DNA of 64,000 bases from Catalinimonas niigatensis. GTDB lineage: Bacteria > Bacteroidota > Bacteroidia > Cytophagales > Cyclobacteriaceae. Below are positions 40,690-62,124 of the stretch, piece after piece. The translations under genes and the position numbers were made by a program. Each line of letters starts with the position of its first letter. Positions within the stretch are counted from its first letter, which is position 1. The stretch covers positions 186,001-250,000 of the forward strand of contig NZ_CP119422.1 in the NCBI RefSeq assembly GCF_030506285.1, read 5' to 3'. The notes under the pieces were generated by a model, which searched no databases, had not been told where the DNA came from, and saw nothing but the letters and a program-made list of their open reading frames with translations.

Positions 40690-41970
40690 TCACCAATTAT
40701 GTATAGAACCATCCGGACTGGTCAGGATAGGATGTGGAAATGTGGTCTTGGTCGTCACTTCCATAACAAAATCAGCTTTCTCCGGATCAAATTGTATACC
40801 TAGGCCGGGATTGGGATTCAGGTATATTTTACCATTCCTAAAGTCCAGAAAGTCTTCATTAAAATAGGCAGGTTTTTCAGGCTCACCTCCTGCCAGTTCA
40901 ATCATACAGCGGGTAGGACTGCTGGAGCCTAACACATGCACCAGGGCTGCGGTAGACAAAGGACCGGTAAAGTGTGGAATGATCCCCAAATAATGCGTTT
41001 CACACATTGCCGCGATTTTCTTAAACTCAGAAATACCTCCGGTATTGGGTAAGGTGACCCGCGTATAATCTATAAGGTGTTTTTCTATCAATTCATTGAT
41101 GTCCCACCGATCGCCAAATTGTTCACCCACCGCTATGGGCACGTTAGTCATCTGCCTGATCGTCTGATAAACGCCAGGGTTTTCTGACCTGATAATATCT
41201 TCTACAAAATAAGGCTCCAGATTCTCCAGAGCTTTGCAAATTTTAATGGCTTCGGTTGTATCAAAACGTGTATGCAGATCAATGGCCCAGTTTCCACTTC
41301 CACCTACAGCTTCATCAATTCTTTTACAATGATCAATGGTTTTATTTGCATGCTCATAAAAATCAAATCTTTCCTCACCATTTCCTCCGGTAGGCCCAAT
41401 CCTATATGCTCTGAAACCAGCTTCTATACAATCTCTAGCTCTTTCTTCTTCTGTTTTAGCATTGGAAGGCCTGAATCCGGTGGCATAACATTCCACATAT
41501 TCACGGGTTGAGCCCCCAAGCAAATCATAAACGGGTACTCCCAGTGCTTTGCCTTTAATGTCCCAAAGCGCCATTTCAATCGCTCCCAAAGCATGTAGTT
41601 TTTCTCTGCCCGGAGGATAAAACATACCGCGATATACATACTGCCAGAGATGCTCAATTCGAAAGGGATCTTCTCCAATCAGCATCTGGGCACACTGCTC
41701 AATCATATCCCTGGAGCCGCCCTCTCCAATACCTATAATTCCTCCATCAGTTTCCACTTCTACTATCCCTCTGGCCTGGTTAAAGAGCGGCTTGTTGTAG
41801 CCGGGAGCACTGTAATACCTGATTTTGGTGATCTTCATTTTGGAAGTTGTAAATACTGCCGCATCAGTTTGTTGTGTAACTGAAGCTGATTCGGACTTGA
41901 AAAGTGGGAAAGCACTGAGTGCAGCGGAACTGAGAAAAGTAGTTTTCAGGAAGTTTCTTCTTTGCATCAT
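40690..41970 (-). CDS. Tat-exported enolase-superfamily protein (acid-sugar dehydratase-like)
   Basis: The 426-residue product starts MMQRRNFLKTTFLSS, a twin-arginine-like signal, followed by the mandelate racemase/muconate lactonizing enzyme fold. Visible features are DIKGKALGVPVYDLLGG, the second-strand region FRAYRIGPTGG in place of a KxK pair, AIDLHTRFD with the first metal-binding Asp and a His, YFVEDIIRSEN with Glu, IAVGEQFGDR, and a C-terminal FVMEVTTKT segment. The DLHTRFD form is shared with sugar-acid dehydratases such as D-mannonate or D-gluconate dehydratases. Export is unusual for the family, so the signal may be a false lead. The substrate is unassigned. Confidence 0.82.
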   Translation of the reverse strand: MMQRRNFLKTTFLSSAALSAFPLFKSESASVTQQTDAAVFTTSKMKITKIRYYSAPGYNKPLFNQARGIVEVETDGGIIGIGEGGSRDMIEQCAQMLIGEDPFRIEHLWQYVYRGMFYPPGREKLHALGAIEMALWDIKGKALGVPVYDLLGGSTREYVECYATGFRPSNAKTEEERARDCIEAGFRAYRIGPTGGNGEERFDFYEHANKTIDHCKRIDEAVGGSGNWAIDLHTRFDTTEAIKICKALENLEPYFVEDIIRSENPGVYQTIRQMTNVPIAVGEQFGDRWDINELIEKHLIDYTRVTLPNTGGISEFKKIAAMCETHYLGIIPHFTGPLSTAALVHVLGSSSPTRCMIELAGGEPEKPAYFNEDFLDFRNGKIYLNPNPGLGIQFDPEKADFVMEVTTKTTFPHPILTSPDGSIHNW

Positions 41971-44324: not shown

Positions 44325-46226
44325 TTATTTAAGGATCGCTATCGCATAGGGAGAAAGACTGATGCTTTTTTTCGTTTTATTCCAGGGTAAAGCCAGAAAT
44401 GCCTCAACATCTTCGGTAAATTGATGAAAATTACCTTGATCCAGTACTTTAATTTCAAACTGATTTTTCCAACCGCTTACTTCTATCTCCTCTGTTTCGG
44501 GCTGCATATTGGCCAGCATCATCATCTGTCTGCCTTTGGCTGTCCAGGCTAAGCCCTCTACCTGCAAAGGATCACTGCTTCTGGTACGGATTACTTCAAC
44601 CTTTTTATCTTGAAGCAGCCAGTAAAATACCCAGTACATGGGGTAAACTATGCCTTTTTTTACTCTAAATTTTTGCGGTAAAATAGGTTCATTGGCCCCC
44701 TGCATCAACCCTCTTCTTCCTAAAGTTTCAAAGTAAGTTATAGCATTTAAATCGCTATTTGTCAAATATTTAAGACTTCCCAATGTCCAGCCTGCTCCAA
44801 AGAGTGACATCTGACGGGTATCTACCTGAGATGGTAATTGATCAGGATGTGTTTCTGCTTCCGGTCCGGTGGCATTAGGATTGAACCTCATCTTCAAAGT
44901 AACCGGAGAAATGTGGACCGGCAAGCCTTCTGAGAATTGTTTTGCACTGTCAAGGGTGAAGGCTTGTGCCTGCAAGGTTTCCACCAAAGACTGGTTATCA
45001 AACTGATGCACCTGAGGATTAAGCGAGTAGCTCAAAAAATCCAGACCATTCGTAGGCAATCGCTCACGATTAAGTTCTGTAAAAAAACAATCTGTCCCAG
45101 CACCGATAAGCGCTTTAGGTAAAAGTTTGCGAAGAGCAGGCAAGACCTTTTGCAATACTTTCGTTGAAGTGGATTTCTGTACTGTTGAGAAAATCATGAG
45201 TTGTTTGATCGCAGGCCTGTCTTTTTCTATCCAGCTTCCAAATCGCTCTAATTCATCTTCCAGATGATCATCATTAAAGTGTAAAGCCAGTTCCAAAGGC
45301 AGATTCAACTGATGGGCTTCCTGCACCGCTCTCTTCCATGCTTGGGCAGGCTTTTCTTCGCTCAACTTTAAATCTACACGATAATGGCTAAAGCGTATCG
45401 CTTTCAGGAGTTTCAGATCTTCCTCTGTTATTATTGCGATATCTGAGGATTGTCCAATGCCTATGTCTGGTAAAGGATAGCGTTCTTTGCCCAAAGAAAT
45501 CACCAAATGTTTAGCCGCTACATGCTTTTGCGTTTTTGCATTTTCTACTGACAGCCTGACGGACTGATGGATTTTATCTCCTTTTTGCACGCGCACCGGA
45601 AAAGGAAGTCCCAGTGGTGTACTATAGGTTTTGAAGGAGGCATCGGTCCAGTTACGCTGGTCTTCCATTTCAAAAATATCACCTTCAAACTTTAGACTGG
45701 TCTGTATACCCTCCATTTTCCACACAATACCTTTCATATTCATAAAGGGCTGATGCGGACTGATATACCTGGGGAAAACGCCTTTTTCATCTTCGCCTTT
45801 CATATGTTGTACCCTACAAGACAAGCCAGCTACTTGGGGTGGATGAAGGACATTGAAGCCTATCCGGTTTTTGAGAAAAGTACGCATCGCCTCCCCTTGC
45901 ATCTCAAACTGAATATTACCTTCTCTATCTCCCTGAAGATGATAGTGGGCCCGAAAATCAATCTCGCCCTCTTGATAAACACAATCATAATGAATATCAA
46001 AATGATCCTCTTCCTGAACAATTTGTTCATTACTAATCTGTGGAGTAATAGTTGCCCAGTTATGATCGCGCACCGCCGGGTAGATCATACGCAATAATTC
46101 TGTATTTCCTGCCTTGATATAACGCAGATAACCTACTTCATATCGGCAAATGAGTGGCCCTGCTTTTAAAAAAGTAAAACATGGAGGACGATGCTCCGAA
46201 CCTCCATAGTAAATATCTTCTTTCAT
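44325..46226 (-). CDS. apnL: predicted D-apionate lactonase (ApnL-like)
   Basis: The 633-residue protein matches the ApnL architecture and length: an N-terminal beta domain (about 1-235, with the GFNVLHPPQVAGLSC segment), a TIM-barrel-like middle part (about 245-520, SHYRVDLKLSEEKPAQAWKR and GAGTDCFFTELNRERLP) and a C-terminal beta domain. ApnL opens D-apionolactone to D-apionate. The gene closes the operon that also encodes a D-apiose dehydrogenase-like enzyme, ApnO and OiaK homologues and a RuBisCO-like protein, which strongly supports this reading. No signal peptide is present. Unrelated sugar-binding roles cannot be excluded on sequence alone. Confidence 0.78.
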   Translation of the reverse strand: MKEDIYYGGSEHRPPCFTFLKAGPLICRYEVGYLRYIKAGNTELLRMIYPAVRDHNWATITPQISNEQIVQEEDHFDIHYDCVYQEGEIDFRAHYHLQGDREGNIQFEMQGEAMRTFLKNRIGFNVLHPPQVAGLSCRVQHMKGEDEKGVFPRYISPHQPFMNMKGIVWKMEGIQTSLKFEGDIFEMEDQRNWTDASFKTYSTPLGLPFPVRVQKGDKIHQSVRLSVENAKTQKHVAAKHLVISLGKERYPLPDIGIGQSSDIAIITEEDLKLLKAIRFSHYRVDLKLSEEKPAQAWKRAVQEAHQLNLPLELALHFNDDHLEDELERFGSWIEKDRPAIKQLMIFSTVQKSTSTKVLQKVLPALRKLLPKALIGAGTDCFFTELNRERLPTNGLDFLSYSLNPQVHQFDNQSLVETLQAQAFTLDSAKQFSEGLPVHISPVTLKMRFNPNATGPEAETHPDQLPSQVDTRQMSLFGAGWTLGSLKYLTNSDLNAITYFETLGRRGLMQGANEPILPQKFRVKKGIVYPMYWVFYWLLQDKKVEVIRTRSSDPLQVEGLAWTAKGRQMMMLANMQPETEEIEVSGWKNQFEIKVLDQGNFHQFTEDVEAFLALPWNKTKKSISLSPYAIAILK

Positions 46227-46270: not shown

Positions 46271-47101
46271 CTATGTAATCGCTTTAATCTGTTTCATCAC
46301 ATTGTCCCATTCAAAAATATCTTTCCAGTTTTCTTTGAATATCAGAGGTTTTCCGATCTCAATGGCTTTATAAGCTGCATCCGAAAATTGTCCTCCAGGC
46401 AATTGACCAAAAAGCAAAGCAAGTTCAATATTGACATGCCCGAGAAAAAAGTCGTAAGCTGCTTCTTTAGGCACTCCTTTGGCTACTACCGTATCTACGG
46501 CTTCTTTCATAACGGTAATCACGGCTGCAGCGAAGGTTTCTGAAAGTGCGGGTTCCAGTATCCCCATCTGCTCTATGGTTACCCTATGGGCTTTGGTCAC
46601 GGGAGCGTACATGCTGCTGGCAAGCTTCTTTCCTACTTCATAATCTTCTTCAGGACCTTGTATGAGGGCACAAACAATGGATTGCCGGGCAGCGATGCCT
46701 CCGAAATAATCAAAATGAGCTTTTTCGTTGGGTTCCCAGTTGAATACTGACGGATGAGAAGGGTGAGCAGCAAAATACGTAATATCTTCCCGCTGAGGCA
46801 AATGGCCTGCACAGGGTGCCGCAGGGTCCAGCGTCACCACCATTGCACCCGCTTTTATTTGTGGTACAATTTCCACGGCTACCTTGCGGATGGCCACATC
46901 AGGAATGGCGAGAATAACAATGTCAGCATGAGGTAGTATTTCTTGGGCTTGGGTAACTTCAATGTCTATTTCTTTAAGCCTTTTGATACCCTCAGGACTA
47001 ACCTCCAGATAGTACATATCATATGCTGAGTCGTTACGAAGATTGGCCGTGGTCCGCCATCCCATTTTGCCTCCTGCGCCTATTAAAACTACTTTTTTCA
47101 T
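46271..47101 (-). CDS. apnO: predicted D-apionate oxidoisomerase (ApnO-like)
   Basis: The start at 47101 (MKKVVLIGAGGKMGWRTTAN) gives 276 residues with the NAD-binding motif at the very N-terminus and avoids overlap with the kinase gene. The next features are ADIVILAIPDVAIRKVAVEI, LDPAAPCAGHLPQREDITYF, and AAHPSHPSVFN, followed by a helical C-terminal domain similar to 6-phosphogluconate dehydrogenases (EAAYDFFLGHVNIELALLFG). ApnO oxidises and rearranges D-apionate to 3-oxo-isoapionate. Position between the kinase and the lactonase genes agrees with that role. Proteins of this family are often labelled phosphogluconate dehydrogenase-like. Confidence 0.82.
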   Translation of the reverse strand: MKKVVLIGAGGKMGWRTTANLRNDSAYDMYYLEVSPEGIKRLKEIDIEVTQAQEILPHADIVILAIPDVAIRKVAVEIVPQIKAGAMVVTLDPAAPCAGHLPQREDITYFAAHPSHPSVFNWEPNEKAHFDYFGGIAARQSIVCALIQGPEEDYEVGKKLASSMYAPVTKAHRVTIEQMGILEPALSETFAAAVITVMKEAVDTVVAKGVPKEAAYDFFLGHVNIELALLFGQLPGGQFSDAAYKAIEIGKPLIFKENWKDIFEWDNVMKQIKAIT

Positions 47102-47123
47102 GATGGTATATTTAGGTTGATTT

Positions 47124-48545
47124 TTAAAATGATGTGCTGATATCTTTTCCGTATAAAATAGATTCAAAAAAATTCGCTTTTCCATTCTGACCACCTTTCA
47201 GGCAGATTTCAAGGCCATCAAATTGAGGGTTATGAGAGTGAGCAGTACAAAGGGGCGCACCAGGAGCAATGGGCATCAGCGTTTCCAGTGCATAAATGCC
47301 CAGTGCCCGGGATACATAACCTGAAGTATCGCCTCCAGCCACTACCAGACGTTTTTTACCAGTAATTTCCAACACTTCTTTGACTAGGCGCCCTTGTGTT
47401 CCTGCCAGGATAGCACTGGATGGGATATCCTCTCGTCCACATGCCTTCATCCGCTCCGCAGTCGCCTTGATACTGGGATCATCCGGTCCAAGTGCTGTAT
47501 ACATCACCAGGCTCTTTCCTTCTTCTAAAGCATTAAGCATTAGCGATTTAACTCTTATCACTTCATCTTCTGATTCATTGGGGATGACCAATTTGACAGC
47601 ATCCAGACGGATATCAGCGAAGCCTTTTTGAATGGCCCATTCCAGTTGCGCTTGTGTGGGTGGGGCACAACTCCCACCAACTACAATCAGCTGATCTGAT
47701 TTACCGGGAGAAGGTGGATCTGGCGGTTTTTGCAAATCACCTTTATCCTGCCATGCATGGCAGAGCGCATATTCAATACCCGAAGAGCCTACCAATAACT
47801 GACTGGAATGAAGCCTGTTGTTATAAATTAAACACCCTATATTCTGAAGGTGTTTTTCATCATAAGTATCAAAAAGAACTAAATTTCCTTTTTCCGAAAG
47901 TAAGTTTTCAAATTTTTGTTGACGCTCTTCCTCTCCTAATCCTAAGGAAAAGAGATCCATCAGATACACTTTGCGGGAAGTTTGCCTGGCAAGATGCAGC
48001 CTTAAGTCACTTTCCCCCATGGGGGTGACCGGATGTTTTGACATGGTAGGATGTCGGTCCAGCCTATACGTTGTGTCCTCTACCCGAGCGAATAAATTGC
48101 CGAAGATACAATAGCGGTTGAGCGATGGAGCGCCTATCAGCATAGGAATATAGTCCGAAGGAAAATAGTGATAGGCGATGTCAACTGCATGGCCAATACT
48201 GCCGATACCGGGTGATGAATCAAAGGTAGAACAGACTTTGTAATGGAAAAACTGCGTAGGAATTTTACTGATCCGGGAGAAAATGTAGGGAAGTTCCCGG
48301 TCCATTTCACCTGGGGTTAGGCTACGGCTGATTCCGGCTACTCCAAAGGCCTGCAAATGTGTTTGTTCTCCACTGACCTTATTTTTGAGCTCAAATGATT
48401 CTAATTCTTCAATTGTCGGTGGCTTAAGAAAAAGCGCAGTAGGTATGCCGTTTAGCGCTAGGGCTTCCATCACATCGGAAGAACCGGTAAAGTCGTCTCC
48501 GTAATAGCTCAATAACATTGGCGCTAGATTCGGCTGATTACTCAT
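47124..48545 (-). CDS. oiaK: predicted 3-oxo-isoapionate kinase (DUF1537 four-carbon acid sugar kinase family)
   Basis: A 473-residue cytoplasmic kinase. The substrate-binding N-terminal domain contains YYGDDFTGSSDVMEALALNG and FHYKVCSTFDSSPGIGSIGH. The nucleotide-binding C-terminal domain contains VVGGSCAPPTQAQLEWAI, VVAGGDTSGYVSRALGI and the terminal LEICLKGGQNGKANFFESI. This is the DUF1537 (SBD_N/NBD_C) family, whose members phosphorylate acid sugars such as threonate, erythronate and 3-oxo-isoapionate. The choice of 3-oxo-isoapionate rests on the neighbouring ApnO, ApnL and RuBisCO-like genes. The gene follows the RuBisCO-like gene by 11 bases. Confidence 0.85.
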   Translation of the reverse strand: MSNQPNLAPMLLSYYGDDFTGSSDVMEALALNGIPTALFLKPPTIEELESFELKNKVSGEQTHLQAFGVAGISRSLTPGEMDRELPYIFSRISKIPTQFFHYKVCSTFDSSPGIGSIGHAVDIAYHYFPSDYIPMLIGAPSLNRYCIFGNLFARVEDTTYRLDRHPTMSKHPVTPMGESDLRLHLARQTSRKVYLMDLFSLGLGEEERQQKFENLLSEKGNLVLFDTYDEKHLQNIGCLIYNNRLHSSQLLVGSSGIEYALCHAWQDKGDLQKPPDPPSPGKSDQLIVVGGSCAPPTQAQLEWAIQKGFADIRLDAVKLVIPNESEDEVIRVKSLMLNALEEGKSLVMYTALGPDDPSIKATAERMKACGREDIPSSAILAGTQGRLVKEVLEITGKKRLVVAGGDTSGYVSRALGIYALETLMPIAPGAPLCTAHSHNPQFDGLEICLKGGQNGKANFFESILYGKDISTSF

Positions 48546-48556
48546 ATCTTTTATAC

Positions 48557-49816
48557 TTACTTGCCATACAATGCGATCGCCTGATCAATTTCAGGATGTT
48601 GTGCTTGCAAATTATGAATGGTTTTTCCTTGCACCGCGCCTTCCCAGGCCAATTGGATGCTTCTAACGCCAGCGGCCATACCGCCCGGATGACCGGTAAT
48701 CCCTCCTCCACAAAGATACATCAGATCAGTGCTTTGTATTTGCCGATAGGTATCAAAAGCCTGCTCCGCCCATTGACCCGAAGAAATTACTGGCATCACA
48801 GGATAACCACCACCATCGGGATTCAGGCAGGCCCGAATGGAAGTCAGTACTGACTCGTCTGACTCACAAAATTTGTTACGAATACCATTGGTATGCAGAT
48901 GATCCACTCCCGCCATGCTAAAAATTTTGTGGTAAGCCTTAAAGGCAATGCCGATATCTTCAGAGCGGGAATACAGTCCCCAGCCGTTGCGATGCCCGTG
49001 GATAGGCAATTGAGTATGTTGCGCCAACTTATTGACTCCGCTGATGCCTACCCAATTGAGGCTGATCATCACACAGCTGCCGCCTTTTTGCAGCACATAA
49101 TCATGCCGAAACAGCATGTCATCTACATCTCCGCTGAGGTTGAAGGCAAACATAGGTTTTTTGCCGTTTCGTTGGGCATAGCGGTTGATCACATCCATGA
49201 CAGCATCTACCCGCTCCGTAAAAGGAGAATGAGGTGAGTCACCCATCAGCTCATCGTCTTTGACAAAATCCAGTCCCGCTTCTATCAGGGTATGTACCTG
49301 CTGTGCCGTTTGTTGCGGAGAAAGTCCCACGCTGGGTTTAATGATGGTGCCTATGATCGGACGTTCATAGACATCACAAAGCCTTCGGGTCTCTTTTATG
49401 CCAAACTGTGGTCCGGGATATTTCTCATTAAACGCATCCGGAACCGTGATATCCAGTAATTTAAGCGCAGAGAAAGGAGAAAGCTCAAACAGATTGCCTG
49501 CCACTGTAGCCATCAGGTTGGACAGGTTCAGACCTACATTTTCCAGAGGCCAGGCCAATTCTACATAAGCCCGCTTATAAACAGGATTACTTATCCCTTT
49601 GGGTACTTGGGTACCGGGAAGTGCAGGCACCAAACGCTCTTCTATCTCTTCCATTGATGCTATGCCTGCCCCATGCTTTTCCTTCAGTTCCCGGGTTTCT
49701 CCCGGTGTTTTGACAAAAGTACCCGAAGACTGCTCGCCCGCCATGATCTCAGCCGCTTGCTCAAGGGGATAAGCAGTTTCTATGAGATATTTTGCTTTGA
49801 TAGGTCTGTACGCCAT
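48557..49816 (-). CDS. RuBisCO-like protein (form IV), predicted 3-oxo-isoapionate-4-phosphate transcarboxylase/hydrolase or decarboxylase
   Basis: The 419-residue protein covers the whole RuBisCO large-chain fold. The equivalent of RuBisCO Lys175 is Lys160 in GTIIKPSVGLSP, but the second Lys of the motif is replaced by Ser162. The metal-binding KDDE is at 186-189, so the carbamylated Lys, Asp and Glu are all present. HGHRNGWG and HLHTNGIRNK supply the loops, SSGQW is at 345-349 and CGGGITGHPGGMAAG at 369-383. It is not a CO2-fixing enzyme. In apionate pathways two related enzymes act: OiaT (giving 3-phosphoglycerate and glycolate) and OiaX (a decarboxylase). I cannot separate them by sequence, so no symbol is given. 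Confidence 0.88.
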   Translation of the reverse strand: MAYRPIKAKYLIETAYPLEQAAEIMAGEQSSGTFVKTPGETRELKEKHGAGIASMEEIEERLVPALPGTQVPKGISNPVYKRAYVELAWPLENVGLNLSNLMATVAGNLFELSPFSALKLLDITVPDAFNEKYPGPQFGIKETRRLCDVYERPIIGTIIKPSVGLSPQQTAQQVHTLIEAGLDFVKDDELMGDSPHSPFTERVDAVMDVINRYAQRNGKKPMFAFNLSGDVDDMLFRHDYVLQKGGSCVMISLNWVGISGVNKLAQHTQLPIHGHRNGWGLYSRSEDIGIAFKAYHKIFSMAGVDHLHTNGIRNKFCESDESVLTSIRACLNPDGGGYPVMPVISSGQWAEQAFDTYRQIQSTDLMYLCGGGITGHPGGMAAGVRSIQLAWEGAVQGKTIHNLQAQHPEIDQAIALYGK

Positions 49817-49823
49817 ATGTATT

Positions 49824-50879
49824 TCAAAAGGTTACGGCTTCAATTTTGACCACCTGTCCACTTTCAGCAGAGGCATAACTGGCATAGACCAGTTGCATGG
49901 TGCGGTAATTATCTTCGCCGGTAATCTCTGCTTGCCTGCCTTCCTGCAAGGCTTGCAGAAAATCCCGATTCAGGTCTACCATGCAGGACTGTACCAAAGC
50001 ATAATCCGGGTTAACCCAATGATACATTTCAGGACTTACTTTCCTTTTCTCAATCTCTTTGGGGCTGGTGATGCTCAGTTGAAAATCACAATCCAGTCTC
50101 AATGACCCCTTGCTCCCCTCAATGAGTAGCAGCGTTTCAGGAAAAGCTTCTCTTTCCAATAAAGAAGCGTAGGACATTTCTACAAAGCAATGGGCTCCAC
50201 TTTTCATCTCCATCAGTACGTTGGCTACATCTTCTCCTTTAATTCTTGGATTAACTCTCCTGGTGAGGCAGCGCAGGTTGTCCACTTCTCCCATCAGAAA
50301 GCGGGCGATGTCCAGCACATGCGAGCCGATGTCGGCAAGGATAAATTTATCTAATTCCGCCAGTACAGGCTGGTTGTCATAGACTGGAAAAGCGGAACAG
50401 AAAGTCACTCGGCCTTTGAATACTTCTCCGATTTTTCCTGAATCCAGCACCTCTCTTACCTGTCGGATGGGGGCCTGCCAGCGAAAATTTTCGTGGACAA
50501 AAAGCGACACCCCTGCCTGCTTACACGCTTCTACCATTTCTCTGGCAGTTTTCAGATCAGGACCGAGGGGTTTTTGGCAAATGGCTGAAACACCAAATTT
50601 AGCGGCCATGATGACAAATACTGCATGTGCCTCAACAGTAGTGATGATGTCTACAAAGTCCAGCTTTTCTTTCTCAAAAAGCTCTTGTGCATTCGTATAA
50701 TGACGTGCTGCTCCAAACTTCTCGGCTGTTCTTAATGCTTTTTCTTCGTCCAGATCGCAGACTGCCACCAGTTCTGCCGCTTCCAGTTCCTTCCAGGCCG
50801 CTATCTGATACTGAGCCCAAAAGCCGCATCCGATGACCGCAAATCTGAGTGTTCTATTCATAAGTATATTTTCAATCAC
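49824..50879 (-). CDS. apsD: Gfo/Idh-family sugar dehydrogenase, predicted D-apiose dehydrogenase
   Basis: The 351-residue product has the NAD(P)-binding motif RFAVIGCGFWAQYQIAAWKE and the EKP-like segment AICQKPLGPDLKTAREMVEA with the catalytic Lys. FVHENFRWQAPIRQVREVLD and the ILADIGSHVLDIARFLMG histidine-bearing helix follow. Apiose dehydrogenases of this family convert D-apiose to D-apionolactone. The next enzymes of that route are encoded immediately downstream. The start codon overlaps the stop of the binding-protein gene by four bases (ATGA), which supports this start; a second ATG six codons later is possible. Substrate assignment is by context. Confidence 0.78.
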   Translation of the reverse strand: MIENILMNRTLRFAVIGCGFWAQYQIAAWKELEAAELVAVCDLDEEKALRTAEKFGAARHYTNAQELFEKEKLDFVDIITTVEAHAVFVIMAAKFGVSAICQKPLGPDLKTAREMVEACKQAGVSLFVHENFRWQAPIRQVREVLDSGKIGEVFKGRVTFCSAFPVYDNQPVLAELDKFILADIGSHVLDIARFLMGEVDNLRCLTRRVNPRIKGEDVANVLMEMKSGAHCFVEMSYASLLEREAFPETLLLIEGSKGSLRLDCDFQLSITSPKEIEKRKVSPEMYHWVNPDYALVQSCMVDLNRDFLQALQEGRQAEITGEDNYRTMQLVYASYASAESGQVVKIEAVTF

Positions 50880-51889
50880 ATATTGGTTTTCATAAAAAGA
50901 TGAATATTGTCCCGGGTGATTTCCAGCAAACCGGTATTGACTGAATGAGGAACATTGGTGATTCCGGCTTTTTCATCATTCTGAGACAGCTTATTGGTAT
51001 CATGTACCATGTCAAAAAGAAACTGGGCACCGTACCAGGTGAAGAGTTCGCGCTTCTGCCCGATCAATACATCAATGACACCTTCCTGCACCAGTTTCAA
51101 ATGCTCTGGTTCCCAGTCAACGGTGGTTACTTTTACTTTACCGGCTTTGCCAGCTTCTTTGATGGAAAGGCCAATACCCGGCCCGCTCATAGCATCAAAC
51201 CCGCAGATGCCTGCCAGATCAGGATTTGCACTCAACAGATCAGAAGTAATCCGGGCGGCTTCTTCCACATTGGAACCATCATCATACTTACCTACTACTT
51301 CTATGTCGGGATAGCCTTTCAGTACATCCAGCAAGCCCTGGAAACCCGCTTCCATGCTGTTCATCCCTAAAATACCCATGTAAGCAATCTTGCCTTTGCC
51401 TCCTATGAGTTTTACCATCGCTTCCCCCTGCAACTTTCCGATCTGGTACCAGTCGGTTCCAAGAAATGCATGACGTTTACTAGTGGGAATATCCGAGTCA
51501 TAGACCACCGTAGGAATACCGGCTTCAACAGCTTTGTTGATGGCTCCGGCAATGGCAGGGTCAGTACCGTTGATAAGCAGACCAGTAGGCCGGGTACCAA
51601 TGACCTGCTCAATGGTGGAAATCTGTGCCTGCACATCCCATTCCGATGGGCCGAGGATAGCCGTTTTCACTCCTCTGGATTGTCCCCAGCGTATAAACGC
51701 TGCCTGATCGTGGTTGACGTACATGGGAAAGTTGACCATAGTTGTCACCATCACATATTCTTCATCTGAATTAATTTCTACAGCTTGTGCCTGAAGTTGT
51801 TGCTGTTGTTTGTAGAGTTCCCCTTTGGTAGGGTCACAGCCTACAGCTAAGCATATCAGGAAAACCGATAGGTTGAGATATCTTTTCAT
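50876..51889 (-). CDS. sugar ABC transporter substrate-binding lipoprotein (Rbs/Xyl type), predicted for D-apiose
   Basis: A 337-residue protein with a lipoprotein signal (YLNLSVFLICLAVGC, lipidated Cys at residue 18). It has the two-lobe type I periplasmic-binding fold of the RbsB family: VNFPMYVNHDQAAFIRWGQS, GLLINGTDPAIAGAINKAVE, IPTVVYDSDIPTSKRHAFLG, IAYMGILGMNSMEAGFQGLL and KVTTVDWEPEHLKLVQEGVI. It delivers the sugar to the membrane complex. Its gene overlaps the permease and dehydrogenase genes by four bases each, indicating translational coupling. Anchored binding proteins like this are less common in Bacteroidota. Confidence 0.88.
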   Translation of the reverse strand: MKRYLNLSVFLICLAVGCDPTKGELYKQQQQLQAQAVEINSDEEYVMVTTMVNFPMYVNHDQAAFIRWGQSRGVKTAILGPSEWDVQAQISTIEQVIGTRPTGLLINGTDPAIAGAINKAVEAGIPTVVYDSDIPTSKRHAFLGTDWYQIGKLQGEAMVKLIGGKGKIAYMGILGMNSMEAGFQGLLDVLKGYPDIEVVGKYDDGSNVEEAARITSDLLSANPDLAGICGFDAMSGPGIGLSIKEAGKAGKVKVTTVDWEPEHLKLVQEGVIDVLIGQKRELFTWYGAQFLFDMVHDTNKLSQNDEKAGITNVPHSVNTGLLEITRDNIHLFMKTNM

Positions 51890-52899
51890 ACTTCTACTTT
51901 TGGAGGTTTAATTTCAGTAGCTTTCTGCACATAAGCCCTCGGTGTAGTTCCTGCTCTTTTCTGGGCAAGCACATCCACTGCAACTGCAAGGATCAGGATG
52001 ATGCCTAAAACAATTTCCTGCCAGTAACCGGAGACCCTGGCCAGGATCATGATATTACTCACCAGCCCCATAAAAATTGTTCCCAGCAAAGCTCCGATGA
52101 TTTTTCCTTGTCCACCCAATAAGCTTGCTCCTCCAAGAATGACCGCTGTTATTACCCGCAATTCCATGCCTCGCCCAGAAGTTGCCAGAGCAGCGCCCAA
52201 ACGGGAAGCCAGCAGTATTCCCGCGATACCCGCCAGCACTGAGGTGAGCACAAAGCCAATGATCTTTACCTGATCTACCCGGATACCGGAAAGCTTGGCG
52301 GCTTTCTCATTGCCACCGATATAGTAATACTGTCGGAAGAAAACCGTCCTTGAAACCAGAACGCTGAAAATAATGACAATGAAGACCATGAACCAGACGG
52401 GCGATTGCACACCCAGAATTTTTGTCTGACCGATGGCATTGAAAGCTTCAGGTAAATTTTGTAAGCCCGCACCAGCCACCATAAGTGCTAATCCCCGGAC
52501 AATGCCCATCATGGCCAGCGTTTGAATCAGCGGATTTATACCTACTTTCGCCACAAAAAAACCGTTGGTCAGACCGATGAACGCCGCAAACCCTAATCCT
52601 ACTAAAATGGCAACCGGTACATACATGCCATACCAGTACATAAAATAAGCGGTAATACTACCAGCGAAAGCAACCACTGAGCCTACCGAAAGGTCAAACA
52701 TACCGGAGATCAGCAGCAGCATCATGCCTACCGCTACGATCGATTCTATGGATAGATTAAGCAGTACCAACGAAATATTGTCAAAAGTGGGAAATTTATC
52801 GGGCCAGATAAAGGCACAGACGATGAACATGAGGGCGATTGTCACCGAAAGGGTAAATACCCGGTCTTGCAGCAGTTGAGTGAGTTTATCTTTCTTCAT
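51886..52899 (-). CDS. sugar ABC transporter permease (RbsC type)
   Basis: The start at 52899 (MKKDKLTQLLQDRVFTLSVT) leaves four bases after the ATPase stop and gives about 337 residues. There are eight to ten membrane segments. The branched-chain amino acid/sugar permease (BPD_transp_2) signature includes SVGSVVAFAGSITAYFMYWY, NGFFVAKVGINPLIQTLAMM, and VFFRQYYYIGGNEKAAKLSG, followed by the EAA-like loop and GRGMELRVITAVILGGASLL. It forms the membrane channel of the importer together with the neighbouring ATPase and binding protein. Confidence 0.9.
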   Translation of the reverse strand: MKKDKLTQLLQDRVFTLSVTIALMFIVCAFIWPDKFPTFDNISLVLLNLSIESIVAVGMMLLLISGMFDLSVGSVVAFAGSITAYFMYWYGMYVPVAILVGLGFAAFIGLTNGFFVAKVGINPLIQTLAMMGIVRGLALMVAGAGLQNLPEAFNAIGQTKILGVQSPVWFMVFIVIIFSVLVSRTVFFRQYYYIGGNEKAAKLSGIRVDQVKIIGFVLTSVLAGIAGILLASRLGAALATSGRGMELRVITAVILGGASLLGGQGKIIGALLGTIFMGLVSNIMILARVSGYWQEIVLGIILILAVAVDVLAQKRAGTTPRAYVQKATEIKPPKVEV

Positions 52900-52903
52900 A
52901 AGC

Positions 52904-54403
52904 TCAGGCAAACATCATTTTGGTTCCGGAAGCATAATGTATAATTTCTTCTTCGCTGGCTTCATCACGGCTGAGTTCGGCGGTCAATTGACCATTCCAC
53001 ATCACCAGAATGCGGTCGCTAAGCGCCAGCACTTCGGGCAATTCGGAAGAAATCAGCAAGATAGCTACTCCCTGTCGGGTCAGCTCTTTGAGAATGGAAT
53101 AGATTTCTGATTTTGCCCCTACATCCACTCCATGTGTAGGTTCATCCACCATAAATACTTTGGGTTCACGCAGCAGCCATTTGGCCAGCACTACTTTCTG
53201 TTGATTACCCCCACTGAGGTGGATCACCTTCTGCCGACTACCAGGCGTCATGATCCGCAGCATCTGTATATATTTTTCAGCAGCCTGCTTCACTTTATTA
53301 TGTTGAATAAAACCTTTTTCGGCCGCCTCAGTAAGGTAAGCAGAGATGATGTTGTCTTCCACACTCATATCCAGAAAAAGCCCGTTAGATTTTCTTTCTT
53401 CCGGCAGATAACCCATCCCCAACTCTGTTGCAGTTTGAGGGTGAGCAATATTGACTTTCTTTCCTTCCCAATAAATTTCACCTCCCATTTTCTTGTCTGC
53501 CCCCATAATGGTACGGGCAACTTCTGTTCGCCCGGCACCAACCAGTCCGGCAAGTGCCAGTATTTCTCCCTCTCGTAGCTGAAAGCTCACATCCCGAAAG
53601 CGCATTCCACTCAGGTTTTTAACTTCCAGTACTATCTTTTCCCGGGTATAAGACTGAAAATAATGCTTTTCCAACTGACGCCCCACCATCATGCGGATGA
53701 TTTCATCCACATTCGTTTCCGCTACATTACGTGTGCCCTGGTATTTGCCGTCTTTGAGTACCGTCACCCGGTCAGCAATGTCAAAGATCTCCGCCATGCG
53801 ATGAGAAATATATATGACGGACACCCCCACTTTACTCAGATCGCGGATGATCTTGAAAAGAATATGGGTTTCGGTCTCGGTAATGGAGGCTGTAGGCTCG
53901 TCTAATATGAGAAATTGGGGATTTTGAGAAAGTGCCTTAGCAATTTCTACCATTTGCTGCTGAGCAGCTGATAAATGCCTGAGTTCCATTTTAGGGCGGA
54001 TTTCCCCTATGTTGAGGCGGTCTAATAAGTGCTGGGTATTCTGATAAAGTTGTGGAAAATCAATCCATCCCCAGCGGTTGCGGGGTTTGTTGGTAGTATA
54101 GATATTTTCGGCAACGCTGAGGTTCTCCACCAGACTTCTTTCCTGATACACGATCGCAATGCCCAGCCGCTGCGCTTCCATCTGGTTAAAAATATTCACT
54201 TCTTTCCCATGCAATAGAATATGCCCCTGGTCAGGTTTAGTATTACCGGAAAGCACATTCATCAGCGTACTTTTGCCTGCGCCATTCTCACCACATAGGG
54301 CATGTACTTCTCCTTTTCTGATTTCCATACTTACTTCATCCAGGGCTTTTACTCCGGGAAAGTACTTGGAAATTCGCTTGACTTCCAGGCTAATCTCTTT
54401 CAA
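52904..54403 (-). CDS. sugar ABC transporter ATPase with two nucleotide-binding domains (RbsA type)
   Basis: The 499-residue protein has two tandem ABC domains. The first has the Walker A CGENGAGKSTLMNVLSGN, the signature LSAAQQQMVEIAKALSQ and Walker B FLILDEPTASIT. The second has the atypical AGLVGAGRTEVARTIMG loop and the signature LSGGNQQKVVLAKWLL with VFMVDEPTHGVDVGAKSE. This arrangement is that of RbsA, MglA and XylG. It is the first gene of the operon and is divergent from the AraC regulator. It powers uptake of a pentose, most likely D-apiose by context. Confidence 0.93.
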   Translation of the reverse strand: MKEISLEVKRISKYFPGVKALDEVSMEIRKGEVHALCGENGAGKSTLMNVLSGNTKPDQGHILLHGKEVNIFNQMEAQRLGIAIVYQERSLVENLSVAENIYTTNKPRNRWGWIDFPQLYQNTQHLLDRLNIGEIRPKMELRHLSAAQQQMVEIAKALSQNPQFLILDEPTASITETETHILFKIIRDLSKVGVSVIYISHRMAEIFDIADRVTVLKDGKYQGTRNVAETNVDEIIRMMVGRQLEKHYFQSYTREKIVLEVKNLSGMRFRDVSFQLREGEILALAGLVGAGRTEVARTIMGADKKMGGEIYWEGKKVNIAHPQTATELGMGYLPEERKSNGLFLDMSVEDNIISAYLTEAAEKGFIQHNKVKQAAEKYIQMLRIMTPGSRQKVIHLSGGNQQKVVLAKWLLREPKVFMVDEPTHGVDVGAKSEIYSILKELTRQGVAILLISSELPEVLALSDRILVMWNGQLTAELSRDEASEEEIIHYASGTKMMFA

Positions 54404-54646: not shown

Positions 54647-55528
54647 ATGAAACCCATCCTAGAAAAACTTTTACCTCAACCTGATGCATCTTTTTCAGTC
54701 AGTGCCAAAGGCCAGCCGCTCTTTGATCCATTTCTGCATAAGCATGACATGTTTGAACTCACCTATATGCCCAGGATCAAAGCGCAAAGGTTTATCGGTG
54801 ACAATGTCAGAGAAATAGACGATTCAGAACTGGTACTGCTTGCTCCTAATCTGATCCATTGCTGGCATATTCTTAGAGCGGAAGAGCAAACAATCTCCGC
54901 ACTGGTGATCCATTTTTCTGAAGATTTTATGGGTAGCGATTTTTTTAAAAAGCCAGAACTTAGTGGCTTTCAAAAACTCATGAAATTGGCGCAAAGAGGC
55001 ATTAAATTCAACGGAAAGCTGGTCAAAGACATCGTTTCACTCATGCAAGACATGCGTGCAGAACCACCGATAAGACGTTTCATTACTTTGCTCAGAATTT
55101 TTGAAATCATGGCAGATGCTTCTTCTGACAATTATGAGATGATTGCCAGCGCGAATTATAAGACTCTGCGTGATGAAAAAGAATACAAGAAAATTAATCA
55201 AATCTATGGCTATGTTCAGCAAAATTATATGGAAAACATCAGCTTACAGACAGCGGCAGATATTGCCAACCTCTCTCCTTCAGCTTTTTGCAGGTATTTC
55301 AAAAAATGCACCCATAAGACTTTTATTGAATTTGTGAAGGAGGTGAGGATCAGTCGTGCCTGCCATATGTTACGCGATCAGCATATTTCCATTGCTGAAG
55401 TCGGCTATGCCTGTGGATACAATAACATGGCCAATTTTAATCGTCAGTTTCGGCAAGTCACACAAAAAAATCCAAGAACTTACCAAAGGTTATTCTCTTT
55501 TGAAGCTAATGGCACAAGAAAATTTTGA
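54647..55528 (+). CDS. AraC-family transcriptional regulator, likely of the apiose operon
   Basis: A 293-residue protein with an N-terminal cupin-like effector domain (FDPFLHKHDMFELTYMPRIK, then SELVLLAPNLIHCWHIL) and two C-terminal helix-turn-helix units (ISLQTAADIANLSPSAFCRY, ISIAEVGYACGYNNMANFNR, FRQVTQKNPRTYQR). The order and length are those of sugar-responsive AraC/XylS regulators. It is divergent from the ABC importer gene, the usual location for a pathway regulator. The effector is inferred to be apiose or a pathway intermediate. Confidence 0.88.
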   Translation: MKPILEKLLPQPDASFSVSAKGQPLFDPFLHKHDMFELTYMPRIKAQRFIGDNVREIDDSELVLLAPNLIHCWHILRAEEQTISALVIHFSEDFMGSDFFKKPELSGFQKLMKLAQRGIKFNGKLVKDIVSLMQDMRAEPPIRRFITLLRIFEIMADASSDNYEMIASANYKTLRDEKEYKKINQIYGYVQQNYMENISLQTAADIANLSPSAFCRYFKKCTHKTFIEFVKEVRISRACHMLRDQHISIAEVGYACGYNNMANFNRQFRQVTQKNPRTYQRLFSFEANGTRKF

Positions 55529-60612: not shown

Positions 60613-62124
60613 CTAATAGCCAGGGTTTTGTGGTCTGAGATTTGGATTTACTGCCAGGTCAACTTGTGGTAGTGGCATCAGATAATCCCGGTTTGGATCA
60701 AAACTAGGATGAGGTTCCAGAGAACTAGGTCCGGTGAATACTTCTTCCCCTAATCTTCTGCGTTTGATGTCATACCAGCGCTTATATTCAAACGCAAGTT
60801 CCAGACGTCTTTCATCCAACACCAAATCTATAAAATCGGCCTGGCTAATTCCTGCTGTTACGTCTTCCGGGAAGCTGGAGACTACCCCTGCCCAGTTTCT
60901 GGCTCTTTCACGGATTTGGTTCACATAGCCGATGGCTTCTGCATTAGGCCCACTTATTTCTGCCAAAGCTTCCGCTGCAATCAGCAATACTTCCGCATAG
61001 CGCATGGCTGCATAATTATTGTCAGAATTCCTGGTGTCACCGCTGGCATTACCCGGATATCTGGCATACTTGGCAATGTGTGGCCTTTGGGTATTGTCAA
61101 ATTCAGTGTATGGGACAAGTACCCCTGCTTCGGAAATAGAATCTTCAAAGCTCACTTCTTTACGGTAATCCCGGTCATCCCAGGTATTGTAGACTTCCAT
61201 AGAAGGTACAAGAACACTCCAACCCAGTTGATCTCCTCCCCTGACACCAGTCATCGGACCCATGATGTCATCATCAGCACCACCTGATCCTCCCTGTAAG
61301 CCCAGGAAGTCCATCACAAAAATGGGTTCATTCAGATTGTCTTGTTGTTCCGCTCTGAAAAGATCCTGAAAATCAGCCGTAAGTCCATAGCCAAACAAGT
61401 CTTTGTTATCAATTACCCATTTTGCTTCATCATAAGCGCTTTGATAATCTTCCAGGGTAAGGTATACTGAGGCCAGATAAGAAGCCGCTGTGCCTTTGGT
61501 AGCCCTGGATCTGATGCCACCATCATGAATATCCGGCAGCCATTGCTTTGCATATTCCAGATCTTCAATAATTCCGCTATAGACTTCACTGACCGGCGTT
61601 TTGGAAATATCCTGCACTATAGAGGGATCGGTGATAAAGAAATCAATATAGGGAATATCACCAAACACTCTAACCAGATGGTAATAGCTGAAAGCCCGGA
61701 TAAATCTGGCTTCAGCAATCAGGGGGTTGATTTCCTCATCGGACAAGTCCAGTGTTTCAGCCCCGGCTACCGCTGCATTGGCAGCACTGATAGTCTGATA
61801 CCAATAGGGCCAGAATTGGCGTACCATCCCATTGTCGGCATCCATATTAAAATCATTAACCTGTTGTCTTTCAGCAGGCGTACCGCGGTCGCCGATATCT
61901 ACCATATCCCCTCTGAGCATGAGTGCCGATACAAACTGCCTGCCGTACAGTCGTTCGGTAGAAATCCATCCATAGGCACCAAAAATAACAACTTCTACAT
62001 CATTTGGAGTTCTGAAAAGTGATTCGGGTGAAAGTAACCCTACTGGCTTCTCCTCCAGATCTGCACAGCTGGCAAAACAGACGACTAGCGCCATAATCCA
62101 TGCTTTATTTATTCTATTTTTCAT
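60613..62124 (-). CDS. susD: SusD/RagB-family nutrient-binding outer-membrane lipoprotein
   Basis: The 503-residue product has a lipoprotein signal (MKNRINKAWIMALVVCFASC, Cys at residue 20). Typical SusD parts follow: LLSPESLFRTPNDVEVVIFG, the AEARFIRAFSYYHLVRVFGDIPYI TPR-like helix (in part LVRVFGDIPYIDFFI), TKGTAASYLASVYLTLEDYQ and YAAMRYAEVLLIAAEALAEI. The C-terminal part ends with WYDIKRRRLGEE and PLPQVDLAVNPNLRPQNPGY. It forms the lid of a SusC transporter and binds an oligosaccharide at the cell surface. The gene lies 22 bases after susC. The glycan is not known; a pectin-type glycan is suggested by neighbouring genes only. Confidence 0.95.
   Translation of the reverse strand: MKNRINKAWIMALVVCFASCADLEEKPVGLLSPESLFRTPNDVEVVIFGAYGWISTERLYGRQFVSALMLRGDMVDIGDRGTPAERQQVNDFNMDADNGMVRQFWPYWYQTISAANAAVAGAETLDLSDEEINPLIAEARFIRAFSYYHLVRVFGDIPYIDFFITDPSIVQDISKTPVSEVYSGIIEDLEYAKQWLPDIHDGGIRSRATKGTAASYLASVYLTLEDYQSAYDEAKWVIDNKDLFGYGLTADFQDLFRAEQQDNLNEPIFVMDFLGLQGGSGGADDDIMGPMTGVRGGDQLGWSVLVPSMEVYNTWDDRDYRKEVSFEDSISEAGVLVPYTEFDNTQRPHIAKYARYPGNASGDTRNSDNNYAAMRYAEVLLIAAEALAEISGPNAEAIGYVNQIRERARNWAGVVSSFPEDVTAGISQADFIDLVLDERRLELAFEYKRWYDIKRRRLGEEVFTGPSSLEPHPSFDPNRDYLMPLPQVDLAVNPNLRPQNPGY

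Follow-up and report, generated by a model that had tools for sequence, protein, structure and literature searches.

A RuBisCO-like protein in an apiose operon of a Cytophagales-type bacterium is probably of the OiaT type

Introduction

The OiaT and OiaX reactions both exist among RuBisCO-like proteins (RLPs) (PMC6302742). A verified OiaT is attributed to Xanthobacter autotrophicus ATCC BAA-1158 (Carter et al. 2018, as cited in PMC6302742), and an RLP oxygenase of a D-hamamelose pathway is attributed to Kim et al. 2018 (as cited in PMC10176493).

The window analysed here is a 64,000-nucleotide stretch of the Catalinimonas niigatensis genome (contig 186001-250000), and positions below are window positions unless the contig is named. 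It holds an RLP gene within a set of apiose genes. The original prediction preferred OiaT over OiaX for this RLP on the ground that no tetrulose-phosphate isomerase gene was seen in the window. The preference is supported, and the choice now stands on stronger evidence, namely the exclusion of the RLP from the OiaX clade, five active-site residues, and genome-wide counts of triose-phosphate isomerase (TIM)-family genes. Judging from the exclusion of OiaX, the residues, and the genome content, the RLP is likely the OiaT-type last enzyme of the D-apiose/D-apionate pathway.

Results

The RLP open reading frame runs from 49816 to 48557 on the minus strand and encodes 419 amino acids, with an ATG start and no internal stops. 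The Pfam scan matched RuBisCO_large (PF00016, 223.9 bits) and RuBisCO_large_N (32 bits). The fold is settled by the PDB sequence search, since the best match was 3nwr (E = 2.9e-112, residues 6-418). The original prediction of an RLP at this site, which had left the strand unstated, was thus confirmed, and so was its claim that the RuBisCO fold and the metal site (KDDE 186-189, Lys160) are retained, the latter by alignment to two form I RuBisCOs. The PF00016 score and the replacement of K177 by Ser162 and of H298 by Trp279 place the protein in form IV (RLP) of the RuBisCO superfamily. It was the single RLP detected in the whole 7.13-Mb single-contig genome. The nearest RLPs, 65-66% identical, are from Cytophagales-type bacteria, e.g. 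Rhabdobacter and a Cyclobacteriaceae metagenome-assembled genome.

The genes of the region were as follows.

52904..54403, minus strand: sugar ABC importer, double ATPase (profile matches)
51886..52911, minus strand: sugar ABC importer, permease, BPD_transp_2 (profile matches)
50876..51889, minus strand: sugar ABC importer, periplasmic binding protein, Peripla_BP_4 (profile matches)
49824..50879, minus strand: Gfo/Idh/MocA oxidoreductase, ApsD-like, putative apiose dehydrogenase (Pfam and similarity to RLP neighbours)
48557..49816, minus strand: RLP, OiaT-like, putative 3-oxo-isoapionate-4-phosphate transcarboxylase/hydrolase (RuBisCO fold by sequence, residues, position outside the OiaX clade)
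47124..48545, minus strand: DUF1537-family kinase, OiaK-like, putative 3-oxo-isoapionate kinase (best family NF042436, 451 bits, cut-off 700; SBD_N, NBD_C)
46271..47194, minus strand: ApnO-like putative D-apionate oxidoisomerase, PGDH_C and KARI-type NAD domain (PF16896, 207.6 bits; PF07991)
44325..46226, minus strand: ApnL-like putative D-apionate lactonase (sole family match NF049900, 338.5 bits, cut-off 750)
54647..55528, plus strand: AraC-type regulator, divergent (position)

Along the minus strand, the gene order is ABC ATPase, permease, binding protein, ApsD-like, RLP, OiaK-like, ApnO-like, and ApnL-like, and a Bacteroidetes metagenome-assembled genome (L017) has ApsD-RLP-OiaK-ApnO-ApnL in the same order. 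The ApnO-like protein is 58-71% identical to RLP neighbours in the Bacteroidota loci L014, L015, L017-L019, L024, and L064, and 48% in L029; the family is also present in annotated OiaX loci. Its true start probably lies downstream of the listed GTG, relatives being 274-285 amino acids long. The ApsD-like protein is 45-55% identical to the products of genes adjoining RLPs in L014, L017, L024, and L029, and Gfo/Idh genes also occur in annotated RLP/ApnO clusters. The NCBIfam matches for OiaK, ApnL, and OiaX were to the right families, but every one was below the equivalog cut-off; the apionate operon with OiaK and ApnO, the context looked for in an OiaT, is accordingly present at the level of families and not of NCBIfam equivalogs. 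The AraC-type gene is, from its position, a probable regulator of the operon. The operon region is flanked on one side by an enolase-superfamily acid-sugar dehydratase-like gene (40690-41970, minus strand) and on the other by a SusD-like (NanU-related) gene (60613-62124, minus strand).

When the RLP was scanned against NCBIfam, the OiaX equivalog NF042437 was the top match with 426.7 bits, below its cut-off of 700, and no OiaT model was returned. All 20 loci comprising annotated OiaX and close relatives scored higher against the OiaX reference than against the window RLP; the reverse held for all the non-OiaX RLP loci. Two trees were built, a 62-row IQ-TREE and a quick 105-row tree, with rows drawn from RLPs other than the verified X. 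autotrophicus OiaT. As shown by the IQ-TREE, OiaX was monophyletic with a support of 100/100 and the window RLP fell outside it, and the 105-row tree agreed. Clustering with OiaX, which would speak against an OiaT, was looked for and was not seen in the tree. The window RLP grouped with L014, L015, L017, L018, and L024 in a Bacteroidota clade (99/97), and these clade-mates are proteins from apionate operons. The deeper branch linking this clade to the branch that holds OiaX was weak (82/63). The non-OiaX RLPs are a broad set that includes loci without apionate genes, and they probably catalyse several reactions, some in other pathways. No Xanthobacter RLP was present among the best 60 plasmid matches.

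The active sites of the window RLP, 20 OiaX sequences, and 130 non-OiaX relatives were aligned to the two form I RuBisCOs. Lys160 corresponds to spinach K175, Ser162 to K177, and Lys186/Asp188/Glu189 to K201/D203/E204. The window RLP retains E28, N108, K160, K186, D188, E189, H275, R276, H306, H308, K315, and S345. Five positions, RuBisCO E60, N123, H325, H327, and S379, separated the groups: all five are retained in the window RLP; E60, N123, H327, and S379 are kept in nearly all of the 130 relatives and H325 in most; and all five are altered in 20/20 OiaX sequences (D60, G123, Q325, Q327, and C/G379). With rare exceptions, neither group has lost K334 or the metal ligands. The original prediction had also pointed to Ser162 in place of the second catalytic lysine. 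The residue is correct, being the K177 position, but it does not discriminate OiaT from OiaX because the lysine is lost across the family, with S or N in the non-OiaX relatives and A or S in OiaX. Ser162 was therefore ruled out as an OiaT marker.

In the RuBisCO mechanism, N123, E60, and K334 serve CO2 addition, and the window RLP has all three (as N108, E28, and K315). A decarboxylase would be able to lose some of them, and a transcarboxylase should keep them. Their retention would fit OiaT, which must add CO2, while OiaX need not; a verified OiaT would be expected to possess them as well.

The OiaX product, L-erythrulose-1-phosphate, reportedly needs the isomerases LerI (TIM family) and DerI (RpiB family). 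No TIM- or RpiB-family gene was found within the window, as the original prediction had noted for tetrulose-phosphate isomerases; this local absence is insufficient alone, because 11/20 OiaX loci likewise lack a TIM-family gene over the nearest 9-10 kb or so. A TIM gene lies within the locus in 9/20 OiaX loci and in 0/130 other RLP loci. The argument becomes informative once it is extended genome-wide. At least two TIM-family genes were present in 18/18 OiaX genomes, the second copy being a candidate LerI isomerase, often beside oiaX, versus only one of 23 genomes of the same order with a non-OiaX RLP, the other 22 having one (Fisher p = 9e-11, about 1e-10, phylogeny ignored); two TIM matches in one genome (G138) are pieces of one gene and were counted as one. 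A single TIM was also found in 10/12 further non-OiaX-RLP genomes, giving 32/35 in all. The three exceptions with more than one TIM despite a non-OiaX RLP were G217 (L098), G005 (L030, Litchfieldella), and G012 (L088, Caballeronia).

Isomerases elsewhere in the genome, which would likewise speak against an OiaT, were searched for in the complete window genome. It has one TIM-family gene, which passes the triose-phosphate isomerase model TIGR00419 (housekeeping), and two RpiB-family genes, which at 83 and 95 bits fall well short of the 240-bit cut-off of the DerI model; all three have housekeeping scores or contexts. One RpiB gene adjoins tatC and a serine hydroxymethyltransferase gene. The other, with 95 bits, adjoins gnd and zwf, and was rejected as a DerI. 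Genome-wide, there is neither a candidate LerI nor a good DerI, and thus no dedicated isomerase for an OiaX product.

Of the two expected products, 3-phosphoglycerate goes straight into glycolysis, and glycolate could be used through a gene cluster on the minus strand at 3.47 Mb (contig about 3466500-3473200; L189:3548-10156). This possible glycolate-use operon encodes a malate synthase (632 aa), an FAD/Fe-S dehydrogenase of the GlcD/YdiJ type (966 aa), and a lactate/glycolate permease of the LctP/GlcA type. The substrate of the GlcD-like protein is uncertain since a D-2-hydroxyglutarate dehydrogenase model matches better than glcD. The glycolate genes are not co-located with RLPs, because the glycolate dehydrogenase and malate synthase of this genome had no match in 150 RLP loci. 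On the supply side, three apiosidase-family (PF13204) genes are present in the genome and would fit apiose, a sugar of plant cell walls, as a food source.

Other RLPs occurred in other contexts. L065 (7888-14625) has an RLP and an OiaK-like kinase without ApnO or ApnL, within about 10 kb of a gene closely homologous to aceric acid hydrolase (NF049879, 1176 bits, above the cut-off of 950). An RLP at a similar distance from such a homologue, again with neither ApnO nor ApnL, was also seen in L050, L066, L068, L069, L075, L078, and L082, and in L057, L022, and L039. The hydrolase homologues are 49-100% identical across the 11 loci, nearly all of which have an OiaK-like kinase; most also encode a protein of the Asp/Glu-racemase family, and those of Bacteroidota add an SBF transporter and further RG-II-type glycosidases. 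We speculate that a branch of aceric acid degradation may use an RLP: once isomerised to the 2-ketose and phosphorylated at C1, the substrate would share the carboxyl-ketone-CH2OP motif, from which a reaction of the OiaT kind would yield 3-phosphoglycerate and lactate. Pairs of an RLP and a DUF1537 kinase without apionate genes in view were found in L003/L089 (Chimaeribacter arupi), L013 (Rhizobium sp. Pop5), and L049 (Methylobacterium), with an SDR-type FabG gene nearby in L003 and L013; one pathway to which these pairs may belong is the RLP pathway reported for D-hamamelose.

Discussion

We propose the following route, its chemistry derived from the structures of the compounds. Apiose would be taken up by the ABC importer, oxidised by the ApsD-like enzyme, and delactonised by the ApnL-like enzyme; the ApnO-like enzyme would rearrange D-apionate to 3-oxo-isoapionate, and the OiaK-like kinase would phosphorylate it. 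The presumed RLP substrate, 3-oxo-isoapionate-4-phosphate, HOOC-C(OH)(CH2OH)-CO-CH2OP, is a beta-keto acid. A metal on Lys186, presumably carbamylated, and Asp188/Glu189 would assist CO2 departure to leave the 2,3-enediolate of a tetrulose phosphate. An OiaX would protonate this enediolate. On the OiaT route, the CO2 would be retained by Asn108, Lys315, and Glu28 and re-added to the neighbouring, former ketone, carbon, and the new carboxylated keto intermediate would be hydrated and cleaved between carbons into 3-phosphoglycerate and glycolate. Once CO2 has left, the remaining steps would match the carboxylation, hydration, and cleavage carried out by RuBisCO itself, in keeping with the retained RuBisCO residues.

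Two other readings were weighed against OiaT. That the RLP is an OiaX-type decarboxylase, which would release CO2 and L-erythrulose-1-phosphate for isomerases encoded elsewhere, could be argued from NF042437 as the best NCBIfam match and from the weakly supported (82/63) joining of the Bacteroidota apiose clade to the larger branch holding OiaX. It is nevertheless unlikely in view of the 427 bits against a cut-off of 700, the position outside the OiaX clade, the retention of N123, E60, H327, and S379, which are absent from all 20 OiaX sequences, and a genome whose single TIM leaves no candidate for LerI and whose two RpiB proteins score far under the DerI cut-off.

Alternatively, the RLP may catalyse a different reaction of this substrate or of one related to it, for example a direct hydrolysis, with no CO2 transfer, to glycerate and 2-phosphoglycolate, or an oxygenation of the D-hamamelose type. 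Non-OiaX relatives do have varied gene neighbourhoods, in many of which no ApnO is in view, and an RLP oxygenase has been reported, as noted above. However, a full apionate gene set adjoins the RLP, its order is kept in related Bacteroidota, and the retained E60/N123/K334 would fit re-carboxylation, so we consider such a reaction unlikely. Also improbable is a reaction of the Bacteroidota RLPs that lies outside both known apionate RLP reactions, e.g. C-C hydrolysis without CO2 transfer, or oxygenation.

An OiaT-like RLP in the apiose operon of a Cytophagales-type bacterium would, as is likely here, extend a known apiose pathway to a new bacterial group. The five active-site positions and the second TIM gene may separate the decarboxylating OiaX from other apionate RLPs, and could be used to annotate many entries named 'ribulose-bisphosphate carboxylase large subunit family protein'. 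The tree also suggests, with modest support around the nodes concerned, that OiaX is derived among the RLPs and has lost residues for re-adding CO2; if true, this would offer a case of RuBisCO superfamily evolution that can be tested.

Compared with form I RuBisCO, the window RLP keeps E60, N123, K175, K201, D203, E204, H294, R295, H325, H327, K334, and S379, but it has Ser at K177, Trp at H298, and Phe at W66, and no carboxylase activity is claimed for it. 3nwr, which we take to be an RLP of known structure from Burkholderia, has E60, N123, H327, K334, and S379 in common with it; unlike the window RLP, it has Asn at K177 and groups in the tree with RLPs without ApnO in view. OiaX (NF042437; Agrobacterium radiobacter K84) is alike in fold, neighbours, and presumably substrate, and the window RLP is 40-42% identical to the two OiaX-annotated proteins aligned; it differs by its score, its place outside the clade, its five retained residues, and a genome without a second TIM gene. 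The OiaT of X. autotrophicus would be alike in gene context, class, and residues: the apionate genes around it (ABC importer, ApsD, ApnL, ApnO, and OiaK), a non-OiaX RLP, RuBisCO catalytic residues that would be kept, and no need of LerI or DerI. The two differ in lineage, Alphaproteobacteria there and Bacteroidota here.
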